From contig NZ_KN050846.1 of assembly GCF_000746845.1 (NCBI RefSeq), positions 2,558,963-2,622,962 on the forward strand: a stretch of DNA of 64,000 nucleotides, given 5' to 3'. The translations under genes were made by a program, and so were the position numbers. Of this stretch, positions 56,134 through 62,577 are shown piece by piece. A model generated the notes under the pieces. It worked only from the letters and a program-made list of their open reading frames with translations. It had not been told where the DNA came from and did no database searches. Origin of the DNA: Altibacter lentus (GTDB taxonomy: Bacteria; Bacteroidota; Bacteroidia; Flavobacteriales; Flavobacteriaceae). Every line of letters begins with the position of its first letter. Position 1 is the first letter of the stretch.

Positions 56134-57000
56134 TTATATTAATTTTTTTTCTGGAATGTCTTTTAAAAAATAGTTGTAAGCAGCAGTTAGTGTAAGCACA
56201 AATAAAGAGGCTGTCACGCCAATAATTACATTATAATACGTATCAGCAGATAGCGAAACACGAATTAAAATTGTGGCTAGTACAAATGCTGAGTACCTGA
56301 AAATACGGTAATAGTTGAGTGTATATCTTAACGCTATCAAAACAATAATGATGTCACTAAAAATAAGCACCGTGTAAAATGTTTGGAAAGAATGTAAATA
56401 GCTTCCTGTTGTGAACAAAATTTTTAAATCGTTAAAACCTACCACGGCAAATGCCACCAATAATAACAAAGCTAATAACTTCTTGAGTCTGATAAACTGT
56501 TCTTGGTCGTCTTCGGTAGCTGTTAATTTAATACGCTTTTGCAACTTGGCAGTTATACTAATTATTGAAAAAATGGCAATGGCGCCAAAACCGTAAACTA
56601 CCATAGGAATAATTGAGTCTTGCATATGTTCCCAACTAAAATCTGTTCCTATATGGCTAAACTCCTTAAAACCATCTCTCAAAAAAATAAGAGACAGTAA
56701 TTCAAATTGTTTTCCTACCGATTTTGCGACCGATTGTGGAAGCACAAAAATGAGTCCAAATAACTCAATGATTAAAAGCAGTGTGAATACTATTTCTATT
56801 GAAAAAAAGGGGTTTTCAAACTTATTTTGATAATGCCCTAGGTTAACATATTCTGATACAACCAGCGCGCTTAAAAAAGAACAAACAATAAATACCAAAA
56901 CTAAAACAACACTAGTAGCATACAAGCTTTGTTTACTTTCATAAAACTGTTTGCACGTATCGAAGATTCGTTCTGTATATGTTAACGTTCTTTTTAGCAT
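56134..57000 (-). CDS. Unknown 6-7 helix membrane protein inside the hyp operon
   Basis: 288 residues, no match I recognise. Hydrophobic segments at about residues 28-50, 72-92, 130-152, 168-187, 200-224, 232-255 and 258-278, with charged N- and C-terminal tails. Polar signals: GHYQNKFENPFF after helix 1, DGFKEFSHIGTDFSWEHMQD before helix 3, and RYTLNYYRIFRYS with spaced Arg/Tyr before helix 6. No CxxCH, no pair of His spaced for a b-type cytochrome. Position between hypA and hypB is unusual and implies a dedicated role with the hydrogenase, for example membrane docking or quinone coupling (inference). Confidence 0.8.
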   Translation of the reverse strand: MLKRTLTYTERIFDTCKQFYESKQSLYATSVVLVLVFIVCSFLSALVVSEYVNLGHYQNKFENPFFSIEIVFTLLLIIELFGLIFVLPQSVAKSVGKQFELLSLIFLRDGFKEFSHIGTDFSWEHMQDSIIPMVVYGFGAIAIFSIISITAKLQKRIKLTATEDDQEQFIRLKKLLALLLLVAFAVVGFNDLKILFTTGSYLHSFQTFYTVLIFSDIIIVLIALRYTLNYYRIFRYSAFVLATILIRVSLSADTYYNVIIGVTASLFVLTLTAAYNYFLKDIPEKKLI

Positions 57001-57006
57001 TATTCT

Positions 57007-57354
57007 TTAGTCATCAAATTCTACTTTATGGATTAACATTTCTTCTCCTTGTATGACATTCTTGCTTGGCTTTTGACAATTATCGCATAAAAAACGATAA
57101 TTCTTTACCTCTGTGATGTGGTCACAACTTTCACATTGTATCTTAAGTTCCACCATTTCTATGTTGAATTTCACATTTTGATAAAACGGATTAGTCATAT
57201 GAGACGCCTCATAAGCATTCATTAAAAGACGTGGTTCTATGTTTGAAAGTATTCCTACTTTCACATAGATAGCTTTCATTTTATTACGTTTCTCTACTTC
57301 AAACTCTTGCTCAAGAGTTCTGTATATTCCGTTTACTATGGATGTCTCGTGCAT
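57007..57354 (-). CDS. hypA: Hydrogenase nickel-insertion accessory protein HypA
   Basis: 115 residues, start MHETSIVNGIYRTL with the Ni-binding MHE motif, and a zinc site with two CxxC pairs (CESC and CDNC, ~17 residues apart). Works with HypB to insert nickel into apo-HupL. Two bp after the TPR gene's stop. Confidence 0.96.
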   Translation of the reverse strand: MHETSIVNGIYRTLEQEFEVEKRNKMKAIYVKVGILSNIEPRLLMNAYEASHMTNPFYQNVKFNIEMVELKIQCESCDHITEVKNYRFLCDNCQKPSKNVIQGEEMLIHKVEFDD

Positions 57355-57356
57355 TG

Positions 57357-58889
57357 TTAGTTTAATATTGTTTTCAAATTCTTAAGTTGATTCAAATGTT
57401 GATTTGCTTGTTCTATAATATTTTCATCTTCCACTATTGTGGTTATAGAAGTTGCCTTTTCAAGCATTTGATGGTACTTTTCTTTTTCTGCTTTTTCATC
57501 TTCATTATGCATTAACCAATACAATTCTAATTGATTCAATAGGGTTAAAGCACGCTCAAAAGGATATTCCTTTTCTGAACGTACAGAAAGTGCATCCTCA
57601 AACAAACCAAATGCTTTATCTAAATTGTTGTGCAATTTTGCCTCTGGAAAATTCATAAGTGCTGTAGCGTAGTTATGACTCGCCATAGCATATTCATAAG
57701 GGTATTCTTCTTTAGTATAAAATGCCAATACTTCCTTAAATGATGAAGCACAAAATGCTGTCCAAATTGGTTTTTCTTCTGGTGAAACAGGAATTTCAGA
57801 ATATATAAGCGCTAAATTGTGATGTATGTCTGCAAACTTTTGAGGATGCGTATCACGTTTGAAAACTTTTAAAGTGTCTTGAAAGGCGTTAATCGCTGGC
57901 TTGTAATACTGCGGGCTTCCATTTTTGGACCAGGTGTATAATAAAGTAGCCTTGCGCAATCCTGCTTCGCCTAAAAATTCAGGAATATCTGCTTCTTTGA
58001 AATAGAGAATGGCTTTCGTAATATAGTTTTTTGAAGTAATAAAATCTTCCTGATAATTGGCGATTTCAGAAGCATCAACATACACTAAACCTGCATTCAC
58101 TTTTAACTCTTTGTCTTCATAAAATGCAATACTAGCTAGTTGTAATTCTTGTATTTCATTTAAAACTGATGTATCATACGGAAGTTTTAGTTGTGCCATT
58201 AATACTGTTGCTAACTGCGTAGTCATAGCATTTTTCGCTTCCTCAGATATAGCCTTGGGGGAAGAAATACGCAGTATCTTTTCAGCTTCTGACAGCATAT
58301 TGTTATCTATCAAAAGATTTACGAAGTGCTTGATGGTGAACAAACGATGTTCATCATTGGTAGCACTCGCAATTGCTTCAGCATATAGACCTTTTAGCGC
58401 ATTTACGTCTTGAGGGGTTGTACTATTTCTGTATTGTAAAATGATACAGTGGTTGTGAGAAGATTCCGCTTTAACGCTGCGCTCTCCCTTTGGTCGTGAA
58501 TCTCCAAGGTTCGATTTCGCGAAAGCGCACATATCCTCACTAATCTCGTAACCAAATTGTAGATGTGTAGCAATTAATAAATGATTGTACAGTTCGTTTT
58601 CTTCAGAAATAAATTCGAATGCCTTTTGATGATTTCCCAATTTGTAAAAAACCATTGCTAGTAAATTCATTTCGGAAAAAGGAATCCTAGGAATGATATA
58701 AGGCGGTTCGGTATCGTGCCAATCTAGAGAGGAAGTTATGATATCTCCTGAAACATATAGTATTTTATTAGAAATGCTGATTGCGTTTTCATCGCTTTGA
58801 ATTTCAACAAGTTCATCTAATCGCTCTACAGAAGCTATAGCTGATTTTATGGTTTCCTGAACATTAGTTTTTGTCAAAATTGTAAGCAT
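57357..58889 (-). CDS. TPR-repeat protein within the hydrogenase operon
   Basis: 510 residues, soluble, no signal peptide. Helical repeats run through the whole protein, with recognisable TPR-like units (FKEVLAFYTKEEYPYEYAMASHNYATALMNF, LFEDALSVRSEKEYPFERALTLLNQLELYWL). Overlaps the upstream 89-aa gene by 26 bp and precedes hypA by 2 bp. TPR proteins accompany related hydrogenase loci in other phyla, but function is unknown; an assembly platform for the enzyme or its maturation partners is plausible. Confidence 0.85.
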   Translation of the reverse strand: MLTILTKTNVQETIKSAIASVERLDELVEIQSDENAISISNKILYVSGDIITSSLDWHDTEPPYIIPRIPFSEMNLLAMVFYKLGNHQKAFEFISEENELYNHLLIATHLQFGYEISEDMCAFAKSNLGDSRPKGERSVKAESSHNHCIILQYRNSTTPQDVNALKGLYAEAIASATNDEHRLFTIKHFVNLLIDNNMLSEAEKILRISSPKAISEEAKNAMTTQLATVLMAQLKLPYDTSVLNEIQELQLASIAFYEDKELKVNAGLVYVDASEIANYQEDFITSKNYITKAILYFKEADIPEFLGEAGLRKATLLYTWSKNGSPQYYKPAINAFQDTLKVFKRDTHPQKFADIHHNLALIYSEIPVSPEEKPIWTAFCASSFKEVLAFYTKEEYPYEYAMASHNYATALMNFPEAKLHNNLDKAFGLFEDALSVRSEKEYPFERALTLLNQLELYWLMHNEDEKAEKEKYHQMLEKATSITTIVEDENIIEQANQHLNQLKNLKTILN

Positions 58890-59133
58890 CTTTATCTACT
58901 TTTTGTGTTCCTCTAATATCTTTAGCAGCTGTTTGTTGCATATGTGACGCATATATCTCCGCTAGTCTTTTTGTTCTGTAATCTCCTATTTTTCTAATCA
59001 ATAATTGATTAGGGTCCGCTGTATTTACAAATACTAATGAAACTTCCCAACGCCCCTTTATATGGTCAATTTTAGTGCCTACTTCTGCATCTAGTAACCA
59101 GGCGTCCTTTGGGTCATTCCGTTTTGCCATCAC
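58864..59133 (-). CDS. Small unknown protein, hydrogenase operon
   Basis: 89 residues, hydrophilic, start MMAKRNDPKDAWLLDAEVGTKI. It ends in a charged tail (GTQKVDKDAYNFDKN). No family recognised, no Cys, no signal. Overlaps the 105-aa gene by 4 bp (ATGA) and the TPR gene by 26 bp, so it is translated in step with both and likely works with the enzyme or its assembly. Confidence 0.8.
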   Translation of the reverse strand: MMAKRNDPKDAWLLDAEVGTKIDHIKGRWEVSLVFVNTADPNQLLIRKIGDYRTKRLAEIYASHMQQTAAKDIRGTQKVDKDAYNFDKN

Positions 59134-59447
59134 ATATCAATTTTAATAAGGTTTGTCTTCTCTACAACTTCATAGTGTAATACTCTGTCACTCATATCTA
59201 AGTCATTATCTATTAAAATTTCTCTAATAGCCAATGTCCTGTCTCCTTTCAAATTTCTAGATTTTAAAAGAAACTGGGTAGGCTCGTGCATTTTAACAAA
59301 CCACTGGCTACTTACTGGCGTAATCAACATTTTGCCTTGCGCAACCACATAAGTAACATACGCATAGTGGATGTTATCAAATACCTTGTCAACCAAAGAG
59401 GCATCGAGATAGACGTGTGATGATTTTAAAGTAACAAGTTCTTTCAC
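59130..59447 (-). CDS. Small unknown protein, hydrogenase operon
   Basis: 105 residues, mixed alpha/beta, with HVYLDASLVDKVFDNIHYAYVTYVVAQGKMLITPVSSQWFVKMHEPTQ at the start. No Cys, so it does not carry iron-sulfur. Start overlaps the endopeptidase stop by 1 bp, end overlaps the 89-aa gene by 4 bp. The tight coupling implies a function specific to this hydrogenase; nature unknown. Confidence 0.8.
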   Translation of the reverse strand: MKELVTLKSSHVYLDASLVDKVFDNIHYAYVTYVVAQGKMLITPVSSQWFVKMHEPTQFLLKSRNLKGDRTLAIREILIDNDLDMSDRVLHYEVVEKTNLIKIDM

Positions 59448-59923
59448 TATGCACTGGCTAGTTTTATATCTTCTAAAATATGTTGCACTACTTTATCTCC
59501 CGCTGTTTGTACTTCTTTACTTAATACGGTATCTAACTTTGTGTTTTCTACGGCAATTAAATAGACTTGTATATCTTTTGGATATTCATCACCAAGTATT
59601 TTTTTAGAATACGATAGTGCTTGATCCCATTTCATACCATGTAAAAATACCATAGGGTCATCTTGTGGCGCTCTTAACACTTCTTCTGCAGGCACTTTAA
59701 ATAAAGTACCAATAGGTTCATTGGAATTTACTACTGCATCTACCATCAAAATTTTAGTATGCCCTTTAAGACCAAAAAGTACTTCAAAGGCGGCCGTACC
59801 CATATCAAAGATATTTATCGTATCATTATCTCCGATAATTTTTTGCAACTCTTCAATCACGTACATTCCTATACCATCATCACTTCTAACTGGGTTTCCG
59901 AAACCCATTATTGCTGTCTTCAT
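59447..59923 (-). CDS. hupW: Hydrogenase large-subunit maturation endopeptidase
   Basis: 158 residues, HybD/HupD fold with GFGNPVRSDDGIG (the Asp that senses nickel) and DMGTAAFEVLFGLKG. It removes the C-terminal tail of HupL after nickel insertion. The gene lies 81 bp downstream of hupL and before the two small unknowns. The symbol follows the cyanobacterial group 2a partner by analogy. Confidence 0.92.
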   Translation of the reverse strand: MKTAIMGFGNPVRSDDGIGMYVIEELQKIIGDNDTINIFDMGTAAFEVLFGLKGHTKILMVDAVVNSNEPIGTLFKVPAEEVLRAPQDDPMVFLHGMKWDQALSYSKKILGDEYPKDIQVYLIAVENTKLDTVLSKEVQTAGDKVVQHILEDIKLASA

Positions 59924-60004: not shown

Positions 60005-61597
60005 TTATAATTTGAATCGAGATAGTTCAACTCCAGATTTTTGATCGTGCGCATGCACAGTACAAACCAAACAGGAATCAAATGATCTTGCAACAATACC
60101 AACTTCTACAGGATCACTAGGATCTTCGATATCGATACCTGTAAGTGCACTTTCAATTGGTCCTGGGTTTCCTTGACCATCATTAGGCCCAACGTTCCAT
60201 GTAGTTGGAGCCATTACTTGATAGTTTTTAATAACACCATCTTTAATTTCTATCCAGTGAGCTAATGCACCACGAGCTGCTTCTGTTGCTCCGAATCCTT
60301 TTCCGTCCTTTTCAACTGGCTTGATATAGAATTCTCCATCGAGGTCAATTTCTGAAAGCCATTGCTCTATAAACTTATATATTCTTGGAGCTTCATGAAC
60401 TCTCGCTAAAACACGTGTAAATACACTAGGTCCTAGTTTTTTCATGATATCTCCAAATAAAGGATCTCTAATTTGATGTTCCTTATTATTAGGGTTTGCA
60501 TTCATTATAACACGGGCCAAAGGGCCTGTTTCTGCAGCATGTCCATCATACCTTGGTGACTTTGACCAACTATATTGTCCATCAAAATCTGTATGGTGTA
60601 ATGGTTGTGATTTAGCAGGAGTGGGTAATGGTTCTTCCCAAGGGTGTAATCCATCTTCTTGATTATCATACCAAGAATGTGAAACATCTTCTTTTACTTT
60701 AAGATGATCAAACTCATGATAATTTTCTCCATCGAAAAATCCACTAGAACTAATCAAGGCATCATTTCTACCTTCAATAGTTGGATTATTATATCGGTCT
60801 TTATGTAAGTATGTTCCTGTTGCCAAAAATTTACCTACTCCTTGACCAAATTTATCTAAGCCAAATTCGATTCCTGCTCTAATAAGCAATCCTAAATCAC
60901 TATTTTTATGAGACTCATTTTCATCAACCCATGCTAACATATCGTCCCATGATTTGATTTCCATATAGCGCTCGATCGAACAACCTAACCATACTGGCTC
61001 TAGCCAATCATTTTTAAATTGTGCCAAAATAGCATGTGCTCGTGTAATATCTTTTAAGGTCGGCGCACACATAACTCCACCTGGAACCATATAGCTCGAG
61101 TGTGGCCACTGCCCACCAAATAAAGCATAGATTTGAACAGGCAATCCACTTGCCGTTAACCCTATTTGAAATGTTTCGCCGACATAAGCCGACCATCTTT
61201 TAACCACTTCTTTATACAAAGGCTGATTAGCATATTTCTTATTCGCCAAATCTGTTGCGAAAATGGCATAAAACCAACGTGGAATACTCTGTAATGTTTC
61301 AGAGGCTTGTCCAATAGCTCTCAATAATAGGGCATTTGGAGATAATTTTGTTCCCCAAGCGGTATCTAAAGCAGATGATGCACAATACAAATGTGACCCT
61401 CCACATATTCCGCAAATACGCGGTGTTACTATAAGACCAGATTGTGGATCTTTACCTTCCATTATTTTCTCAAAACCTCTAAACATTGCTGCCTGGGTAT
61501 GAGCACGAGTTACTTTTCCGTTATCGATATAAACTTTAACATCTAAATCTCCTTCAACACGTCCTACGGGTGATATATTTAATTCTTTTACTGACAT
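60005..61597 (-). CDS. hupL: [NiFe]-hydrogenase large subunit, group 2a type
   Basis: 530 residues. Nickel ligands: L1 motif RICGICGGSH (about residue 60) and L2 motif DSCLVCTVH near the end. The expected cleavage after this His leaves a 15-residue tail (AHDQKSGVELSRFKL), matching the presence of a dedicated protease. DSC instead of DPC and the sequence around GPIESALTGIDIEDPSDPVE agree with the group 2a uptake enzymes of cyanobacteria and mycobacteria. Oxidises H2 at the Ni-Fe(CN)2CO centre and passes electrons to HupS. It starts 20 bp after the hupS stop. Confidence 0.95.
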   Translation of the reverse strand: MSVKELNISPVGRVEGDLDVKVYIDNGKVTRAHTQAAMFRGFEKIMEGKDPQSGLIVTPRICGICGGSHLYCASSALDTAWGTKLSPNALLLRAIGQASETLQSIPRWFYAIFATDLANKKYANQPLYKEVVKRWSAYVGETFQIGLTASGLPVQIYALFGGQWPHSSYMVPGGVMCAPTLKDITRAHAILAQFKNDWLEPVWLGCSIERYMEIKSWDDMLAWVDENESHKNSDLGLLIRAGIEFGLDKFGQGVGKFLATGTYLHKDRYNNPTIEGRNDALISSSGFFDGENYHEFDHLKVKEDVSHSWYDNQEDGLHPWEEPLPTPAKSQPLHHTDFDGQYSWSKSPRYDGHAAETGPLARVIMNANPNNKEHQIRDPLFGDIMKKLGPSVFTRVLARVHEAPRIYKFIEQWLSEIDLDGEFYIKPVEKDGKGFGATEAARGALAHWIEIKDGVIKNYQVMAPTTWNVGPNDGQGNPGPIESALTGIDIEDPSDPVEVGIVARSFDSCLVCTVHAHDQKSGVELSRFKL

Positions 61598-61617: not shown

Positions 61618-62577
61618 TTATTTAGAAGTTTCAGTTACACGTTTATTTGTAGGCATAACCTTCTGGAAACCTGCTTCCATATAATACGCCAATTTTGTTC
61701 TTCCTGTTGGAACTTCTTTAGGAAAAACTCCTAAATGCTTCATCGTTTTGAACACACTTCCTTTCATTAAATCATTATGTGGAAATCCTGGTTCTGTGCA
61801 TCCTAAGCAAGGATGATTAGAACGTGTTTTACTCGACTGACGATTCCAAAGTATATTATTACAACTTGCTCTAGTCATTGGTCCACGACATCCTACTTCG
61901 TAGAATAGACATCCACCACGTTTTCCAAAGTTTCCATCGACCTTCTGAGCGAAATTAGTCACGTTAGTACATCCGTCTTGAACGAAATCTGTAAAAAATG
62001 TTTTTGGTCTGTGAAATTCATCTATTAAAACATCACCTATTCTTCCAACAGATATTGCTACGAGTATTTGAGTTATCCAATCAGGATGCGCTGGGCATCC
62101 AGGGATATTTATAACAGGTAAGCCTCCTTTTGAAACGTAGTCGTGACCTAAGAAGCCTCCTTTATTTTTCTTATGAAATTGTAAACCAGTTGATTCACTA
62201 GGGTTTGGCGCTACAGCGGGAATTCCTCCCCAAGTTGCACAATCTCCAATTGCAACTACATAGCCTGCAACCTTTGATAATTCTTTAATCCAATCCATCA
62301 TTGGTCTATCGGCAAAATAATTCATTGTCCCAGTATTATTAGGACCTTTTATTAAGGAACCTTCATATACCAGAATATCCATTTGAACTTTTCCTGCTAA
62401 GATATCTTTTAAAAGATCTTGTACTTGATCTCCAATTTGTAATCCTGTAGTTGGATGCCAAAGAATATTAAGCCCGAAATCTGTAATAAGTTCTACCACA
62501 GTTGGTTCTTCAGCGTTCAAAAAGGACATTGTGTTTCCACTACATGCACCTCCTTGTAACCATAAAACGTTTGCCAT
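61618..62577 (-). CDS. hupS: [NiFe]-hydrogenase small subunit, group 2a type
   Basis: 319 residues from MANVLWLQGGACSGNT. An in-frame ATG 75 bp upstream adds 25 residues (MIIRILKIEIFLLF...) with no Arg-Arg motif and is rejected. No Tat signal and no C-terminal anchor, so it stays cytosolic or on the inner face of the membrane. Cluster ligands: GACSG, GDCATWGG, NIPGCPAHPDW, DGCTNVTNF, CLFYEVGCRGP, and HPCLGCTEPGFP. The N-terminus and long stretches (FADRPM-DW, KVAGYVVAIGDCATWGGIPA-PNPSES-GLQF) closely follow cyanobacterial HupS. First gene of the operon. Confidence 0.95.
   Translation of the reverse strand: MANVLWLQGGACSGNTMSFLNAEEPTVVELITDFGLNILWHPTTGLQIGDQVQDLLKDILAGKVQMDILVYEGSLIKGPNNTGTMNYFADRPMMDWIKELSKVAGYVVAIGDCATWGGIPAVAPNPSESTGLQFHKKNKGGFLGHDYVSKGGLPVINIPGCPAHPDWITQILVAISVGRIGDVLIDEFHRPKTFFTDFVQDGCTNVTNFAQKVDGNFGKRGGCLFYEVGCRGPMTRASCNNILWNRQSSKTRSNHPCLGCTEPGFPHNDLMKGSVFKTMKHLGVFPKEVPTGRTKLAYYMEAGFQKVMPTNKRVTETSK

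Follow-up and report, generated by a model that had tools for sequence, protein, structure and literature searches.

Hydrogenases of group 2a (Huc type) can oxidize atmospheric hydrogen in air, and their assembly has hardly been studied in the literature covered here. For uptake hydrogenases of group 1, accessory chaperones of the HupGHIJK, HyaE and HybE types are known. The group 2a enzyme purified from Mycobacterium smegmatis is described in the excerpts of PMC10017518 as giving three bands, namely HucL, HucS and HucM. In the present study a stretch of 64,000 nucleotides of Altibacter lentus (contig NZ_KN050846.1, positions 2,558,963 to 2,622,962; hereafter the window) was analyzed, which harbors a locus of this type with two small genes, denoted X and Y, directly downstream of the endopeptidase gene hupD. 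X and Y represent two unnamed families that accompany the group 2a enzyme in several phyla, X being linked to the protease by gene fusion. Judged from their sequences and gene neighborhoods, the two proteins probably serve specifically in the maturation of group 2a hydrogenases, working with the endopeptidase, rather than as subunits or as a counterpart of HucM. This reading is the most likely one because of their co-occurrence with the large subunit HupL, two gene fusions, a hupD-X-Y-TPR block found apart from the structural genes, and the composition of purified Huc, whose third component HucM is distinct from both. The genes in question are as follows.

61618-62577, minus strand: hupS, hydrogenase small subunit, by Pfam and NCBIfam match.
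60005-61597, minus strand: hupL, group 2a (Huc-type) large subunit of 530 amino acids (aa), by PDB sequence match.
59447-59923, minus strand: hupD, hydrogenase maturation endopeptidase of 158 aa (TIGR00072, PF01750).
59130-59447, minus strand: X, 105 aa, GTG start, overlapping the hupD stop by 1 base pair (bp); predicted MraZ/AbrB-like fold.
59241-59267, minus strand: residues 61-69 of X, LKSRNLKGD, its most conserved stretch.
58864-59133, minus strand: Y, 89 aa, GTG start, overlapping X by 4 bp; predicted order alpha-beta-beta-beta-alpha, downstream clade.
57357-58889, minus strand: TPR-repeat protein of 510 aa, overlapping Y by 26 bp.

The overlaps of 1, 4 and 26 bp (hupD/X, X/Y and Y/TPR), to which the original prediction had drawn attention, agree with the coordinates of the open reading frames (ORFs). 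The second codon of Y is ATG (59130), so that a product of 88 aa is equally possible. Because each of the two frames is conserved as protein in dozens of loci, X and Y are real ORFs, far beyond chance. Both lack cysteine, as had been noted before, and hydropathy depicts no membrane-helix-like stretch in either (top Kyte-Doolittle mean over 19 residues 0.82 for X and 0.64 for Y). The statement that they match nothing known likewise holds in the databases searched: Pfam gives no significant match, NCBIfam returns unrelated models with a best E of 0.06–0.08, and PDB sequences yield nothing better than E 0.12. The hallmark of X is the segment LK-x-RN-x-x-GD, within which Leu61 is found in 59, Lys62 in 60, Asn65 in 56, Gly68 in 61 and Asp69 in 57 of 62 sequences.

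HupL finds its best PDB matches in 7uus_A and 7utd_A, both of them Huc large subunits (E 4e-203 to 5e-203), with the next family following at 1e-62. Since the match to the Huc large subunit far exceeds those to other solved hydrogenases, HupL is assigned to the Huc type, which supports the group 2a reading made initially. Residues 5–515 of its 530 residues align to the end of the 7uus_A chain. Beyond this point a C-terminal tail of 15 residues extends, the expected product of cleavage by HupD.

A scan of genome contigs for HupL gave 73 loci, mostly labeled Bacteroidota. X is detected by profile in 68 of them, every time after hupD. The five remaining loci comprise three whose contigs stop 94–365 bp past hupL, as well as L061 and L074. 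The genome of L061 carries X at another site, within hupD-X-Y-TPR, and at the planctomycete locus L074 the protein in the X position aligns with distant X sequences and is missed by the Bacteroidota profile. X is absent from no testable locus, L074 resting on position and alignment. A search for further relatives of the L074 HupL among 246 Planctomycetota genomes returned L074 itself only (1/246).

Y is detected by profile in 59 of the 73 loci; among the 14 others, L074 shows a weak match (E 0.018, Bacteroidota-based profile). For four loci without it (L041, L057, L058 and L072), Y turns up at a different site of the genome or on a separate contig. Seven more (L005, L038, L039, L048, L049, L055 and L059), covered by a search of the locus only, are located on contigs that are short on at least one side. 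In L026 and L030, two Bacteroidota metagenome-assembled genomes (MAGs) of unstated completeness, no Y was found in the whole MAG, and the TPR gene stands close behind X. A homologue of the TPR protein is present in 68/73 contig loci and in all 11 plasmid loci fetched. The original prediction had named as evidence against its reading that further loci carrying this HupSL lack the two genes; for X this check gave no refutation, and a minority of loci lack Y.

Among 395 Bacteroidota genomes sampled evenly, five, each of a different genus, carry HupL at E 1e-100 or better. The Y profile matches all five of these and none of the 390 HupL-negative genomes, and the X profile matches all five and a single HupL-negative one (G545, E 7e-4). 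G545 was rejected as a sixth X genome, since its 3.2-kilobase (kb) locus carries no hydrogenase gene and the ORF matched there is taken to encode an OsmC-like protein. The chance of a perfect 5-in-395 match amounts to 1.3e-11 under the assumption of independent genomes, which these strictly are not. An order-level sample contains X in 3/395 genomes, each time adjoining hupD and hupL. Within the Bacteroidota sample, X and Y accompany a single type of hydrogenase and are absent where that type is lacking.

The same association extends beyond Bacteroidota. Thirty-six plasmid records contain a HupL-like match at 1e-60; 17 of these, at least 53.8% identical to the HupL of the window, were treated as group 2a (11 of the 17 were fetched), and the other 19 are at most 36.8% identical. 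X is present in 17/17 group 2a records when tblastn and profile searches are combined, and tblastn at E 0.1 gave no X hit in the 19 others. By tblastn the Thermus X matches 13 of the 17, with E values of only 1e-3 to 3e-3 in the alphaproteobacterial records; the X of the window adds Runella and Hymenobacter. In Sphingopyxis and Novosphingobium X is located between hupD and the TPR gene by a profile which itself contains a Sphingopyxis sequence, the Bacteroidota-based profile alone giving E 0.03.

The combined X and Y profiles include the distant sequences that they recover and are to this extent circular; independent evidence is provided by the Bacteroidota-based profiles and tblastn. The Bacteroidota-based X profile matches L090 (4e-6), L083 (0.002), L084 (0.004), L089 (0.005), L085 (0.03) and L091 (0.11) and gives no match in L086 and L074, and the corresponding Y profile matches L083 (4e-8), L074 (0.018) and L086 (0.027). 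Profile-profile alignment of distant against Bacteroidota sequences yields E 8e-11 for X and 8e-10 for Y, each from a single comparison. In the taxa surveyed, X ranges from Bacteroidota to Mycobacterium, Thermus, Sulfobacillus and Alphaproteobacteria. Y is found in Runella, M. intracellulare and Sulfobacillus, while searches for it gave no hit in Thermus, on the Hymenobacter plasmid or in the six loci fetched from Alphaproteobacteria. Because several lineages seem to lack it, Y is probably accessory and not generally essential.

A tie to a known enzyme is seen in M. intracellulare, where the maturation protease comprises 257 aa compared with 158 in the window. The additional C-terminal part is X, which shares 52% identity with the free X of Thermus across 91 residues (E 4e-19), and the core of this match is again the LK-x-RN-x-x-GD segment. 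An 85-aa Y (E 4e-8) follows next after this HupD-X protein, and then the TPR gene. X itself harbors no protease domain and thereby differs from HupD/HucD (PF01750, TIGR00072), whose C-terminal domain it forms in this species. In Sulfobacillus, a single protein of 165 aa between hupD and the TPR gene consists of X followed by Y, the X half matching at E 6e-7 and the Y half at E 0.027 with the Bacteroidota Y profile and at 0.04 with the mycobacterial Y. No ORF matching both HupD and X was found among the contig loci. At L053 (11578-12509) the final HupD residues lie in the open frame of X and the remainder of HupD in a different frame, which is possibly a second HupD-X fusion broken by a frame change, be it real or an assembly error. 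Finally, in a Chitinophagaceae MAG (L061, L138) hupD-X-Y-TPR forms a block apart from hupSL. X thus has a genetic link to the known maturation enzyme HupD, with which it may be in physical contact. By virtue of both fusions and the L061 block X, and via X also Y, are tied to the HupD step.

A plausible mechanism would be as follows. X would serve as the partner domain of HupD, supplied as a free protein in most loci and covalently attached in M. intracellulare. Via its conserved LK-x-RN-x-x-GD segment it would dock the nickel-loaded HupL precursor, whereupon HupD would remove the 15-residue C-terminal tail. Y may be a small, partly dispensable helper acting on X, and the TPR protein could be a third chaperone completing the assembly unit. 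The observations underlying this scheme are the linkage, the co-occurrence, the two fusions, the L061 block and the predicted fold of X. X and Y are candidates for co-expression when a functional Huc-type hydrogenase is to be made in another host.

Several points speak against this assignment. Every contact of X and Y, the docking of the substrate and the step of action are inferred from sequence data. Fusion to the protease could equally reflect a regulation of cleavage instead of docking, the clean HupD-X fusion is known from a single plasmid locus of Mycobacterium, and taken alone the Y half of the Sulfobacillus protein is weak (E 0.03–0.04). Furthermore, Y was not found in Thermus, the six alphaproteobacterial loci and the MAGs of L026 and L030, and the purified Huc stems from M. 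smegmatis, whereas the mycobacterial X and Y come from M. intracellulare, a different species. The standard HupD/HybD proteases of other groups are not known to require such a partner.

The AlphaFold2 model of X, calculated from 54 sequences, has a mean pLDDT of 95.3 and a pTM of 0.87. It depicts two beta-beta-alpha-beta-beta units in one chain with a helix in between. Foldseek finds no significant match for this model (best E 0.91). Among Foldseek's first 1000 chains, VIA-align places MraZ at the top, with five entries at Z 8.4–8.6 and a root mean square deviation (rmsd) of 2.7–2.9 Å. The superposition (at best Z 8.6, rmsd 2.7 Å) covers 90 residues and thus the whole length of X at 13–14% identity. 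B3 DNA-binding domains come next at Z 3.6–4.2, which leaves a gap of about 4 Z units. Because of this gap and the full-length coverage the predicted MraZ/AbrB-like fold of X is credible, a Z of 8–9 being only moderate.

At the sequence level the resemblance to MraZ is not significant. None of the 54 X sequences matches PF02381 at E 0.1. Local hhalign of X against 29 MraZ sequences returned the same region three times (the first MraZ unit), each time not significantly (E 0.03–0.09), and the global alignment was placed elsewhere (E 0.11). The D-x-x-G-R motif, with which MraZ binds DNA, occurs in 1/54 X sequences and in 0/8 distant ones; the 29 MraZ sequences were themselves selected for carrying it. 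Conversely, none of the 29 contains the segment that is most conserved in X. The net charge is near neutral in both families and does not discriminate between them. In contrast to MraZ/AbrB proteins, X is linked to a hydrogenase and can be fused to its protease. It is conceivable, albeit rather doubtful, that an MraZ/AbrB barrel was recruited as a protease cofactor, so that X would sense the nickel-loaded, folded HupL and then permit the HupD cut as a checkpoint specific to group 2a. X may provide the first clue to a non-DNA role for the MraZ-like fold.

Among the explanations competing with HupD-dependent maturation, an unlikely one is that X, Y and the TPR protein serve the small subunit, i.e. 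Fe-S insertion or the docking of HupS to HupL, and not the cleavage of HupL. Such a function has been proposed, in the excerpts of PMC2408588, for Nostoc alr0691, a TPR protein encoded in a group 2a region likened to the present one by description only, and its neighbors. NifU-like and NHL genes after the TPR gene in most of the non-Bacteroidota plasmid loci fetched would also be in line with it. The proposal for alr0691 itself is, however, untested according to the same excerpts, X and Y are devoid of cysteines, and the fusion partner of X, HupD, processes HupL.

A quite improbable alternative is that X and/or Y are extra subunits of the mature Bacteroidota enzyme which replace HucM as scaffold, membrane adaptor or electron-transfer adaptor. 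HucM resembles X and Y in being a small protein encoded in a group 2a cluster. The whole genome of the window contains no match to the HucM family DUF1641, and a paralogue of Y is located upstream of hupSL in 28/73 loci, which is the side of hucM in Mycobacterium. However, the M. intracellulare hucM gene (DUF1641, E 3e-34 to 7uus_Q) is situated upstream of hucS, and X and Y are present in addition at a different place of the same gene cluster; for this reason neither X nor Y is HucM. In keeping with this, X and Y do not match DUF1641 and PDB searches with them did not return HucM. Moreover, X is part of the protease chain in M. intracellulare, the bands reported for M. smegmatis Huc in the excerpts of PMC10017518 are accounted for by HucS, HucL and HucM, X and Y have neither cysteines nor a membrane-helix-like stretch, and no Y was detected in several lineages retaining HupSL. 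Of the initial proposal of subunits or specific chaperones, it is therefore the chaperone half that is favored by the co-occurrence with HupL and the HupD-X and X-Y fusions; the subunit half, including the suggested counterpart of the actinobacterial scaffold, is not, HucM being a different family encoded upstream of hucS that coexists with X and Y.

That X is an AbrB/MraZ-type transcription factor of the hup operon is very unlikely, for although MraZ (Z 8.4–8.6) and B3 DNA-binding domains (Z 3.6–4.2) are its nearest folds among the chains compared and in Nostoc the AbrB-like protein CalA binds to the promoter region of hup/hyp (excerpts of PMC3126725), D-x-x-G-R is found in one of 54 X sequences, the most conserved stretch of X in none of the 29 MraZ sequences, the profile similarity is not significant (E 0.03–0.11) and a DNA-binding domain joined to an endopeptidase would be odd.

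Y has no convincing structural relative. Its model (pLDDT 75) displays the element order alpha-beta-beta-beta-alpha; the best Foldseek E is 0.045 and the maximum VIA-align Z 5.1. The order of elements agrees with that of the dsRBD, dsRBD rows reaching Z 4.3 against 5.1 for the best row of any kind, at the model pLDDT given. A tree of Y sequences from loci L004-L076 separates an upstream clade (28 sequences, mostly about 119 aa) from a downstream clade (35 sequences) with a split support of 0.977. The window is represented therein by L004, whose HupL is 100% and whose Y is 84% identical, and by this placement the Y of the window belongs to the downstream kind. Both kinds occur together in L050, L052 and L069 and in genomes G427 and G564. 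The upstream paralogues are those located 5′ of hupSL in the 28 of 73 loci mentioned above. An identification of Y with HucM was considered and rejected: the apparent move of Y upstream of hupS arose from keeping the best Y hit per locus, and the full scan together with the tree gave two paralogous clades instead.

The upstream Y is bordered by one or two TetR-type regulator genes (L139-L142, L087:5105-6789). Counted by motif, at least 20 of the 28 loci with an upstream Y have a TetR-like gene within 2 kb of it, compared with 0 of 30 loci that offer enough room but lack an upstream Y. The Runella record names TetR there, and a gene of the bifunctional nuclease family is also found beside its upstream Y. 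This suggests that upstream Y and TetR genes form a separate regulated unit. The ORF list shows no TetR-type gene upstream of hupS in the window.

A literature search found no description of X or Y in titles or abstract openings. Proteins called hypothetical or unknown are mentioned for group 2a regions, with X and Y uncharacterized, in the excerpts of PMC7784904, PMC12976888, PMC2408588, PMC3126725 and PMC6883350; accessory proteins are named in a figure legend of PMC7248562, and the excerpts of PMC2670836 refer to a different unknown gene upstream of hupW. Similar in position is IMI45_RS09615 of Parageobacillus thermoglucosidasius, a hypothetical protein encoded after the protease, which is induced together with the huc genes and is uncharacterized according to the excerpts of PMC12976888. 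The proposed role is that of HupGHIJK, HyaE and HybE, the operon-encoded, enzyme-specific maturation helpers of group 1 (excerpts of PMC3126725). Contrary to these, X and Y match no family of this type in Pfam or NCBIfam, and X is predicted to be MraZ-like. As far as seen, maturation helpers as a kind are known, whereas the X and Y families and an MraZ-like fold in that role would be new.

Two small unknown genes are also present in the group 2a region of Nostoc, namely asr0689 and asr0690 of the extended hyp operon. Their equation with X and Y was rejected by description, as the excerpts of PMC2408588 assign two transmembrane regions to each and hydropathy indicates none in X and Y. One or two tiny proteins that appear hydrophobic by eye are encoded between the genes for the TPR and NifU-like proteins (L089:14309-14518, L085:14280-14725, L090:14286-14711), and these may be the counterparts of asr0689 and asr0690.

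The gene order on the minus strand of the window, compiled from the ORF list with Pfam and NCBIfam, is hupS-hupL-hupD-X-Y-TPR-hypA-288-aa protein-hypB-hypF-hypC-hypD. Family names follow from Pfam and NCBIfam matches, while hypF and hypD were assigned by eye and gene position. The first gene after the TPR gene is the following.

57007-57354, minus strand: hypA, by Pfam and NCBIfam match.

The 288-aa protein between hypA and hypB (56134-57000, minus strand) is membrane-like by eye and without a match in Pfam and NCBIfam. Profile matches to it are confined to nine loci, namely the window and eight others, one of which, L036, has it on the opposite strand. The L036 contig is labeled "Rickettsiales bacterium"; its HupL is 80% identical to that of the window and its gene order is of the Bacteroidota type, and it is probably mislabeled or derived from a mixed bin.

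In alphaproteobacterial loci, in which Y was not found, two small paralogous cysteine-rich proteins are encoded between hupL and hupD. They share the motif C-x-x-C-M-Y-Y ... C ... C-R/K-L-W-R-I and are located as follows.

L085:11680-12389: cysteine-rich pair.
L089:11698-12349: cysteine-rich pair.
L090:11662-12373: cysteine-rich pair.
L091:11684-12360: cysteine-rich pair.

The pair is reminiscent of high-potential iron-sulfur proteins. L136 and L137 also have two small genes without a name in this position.

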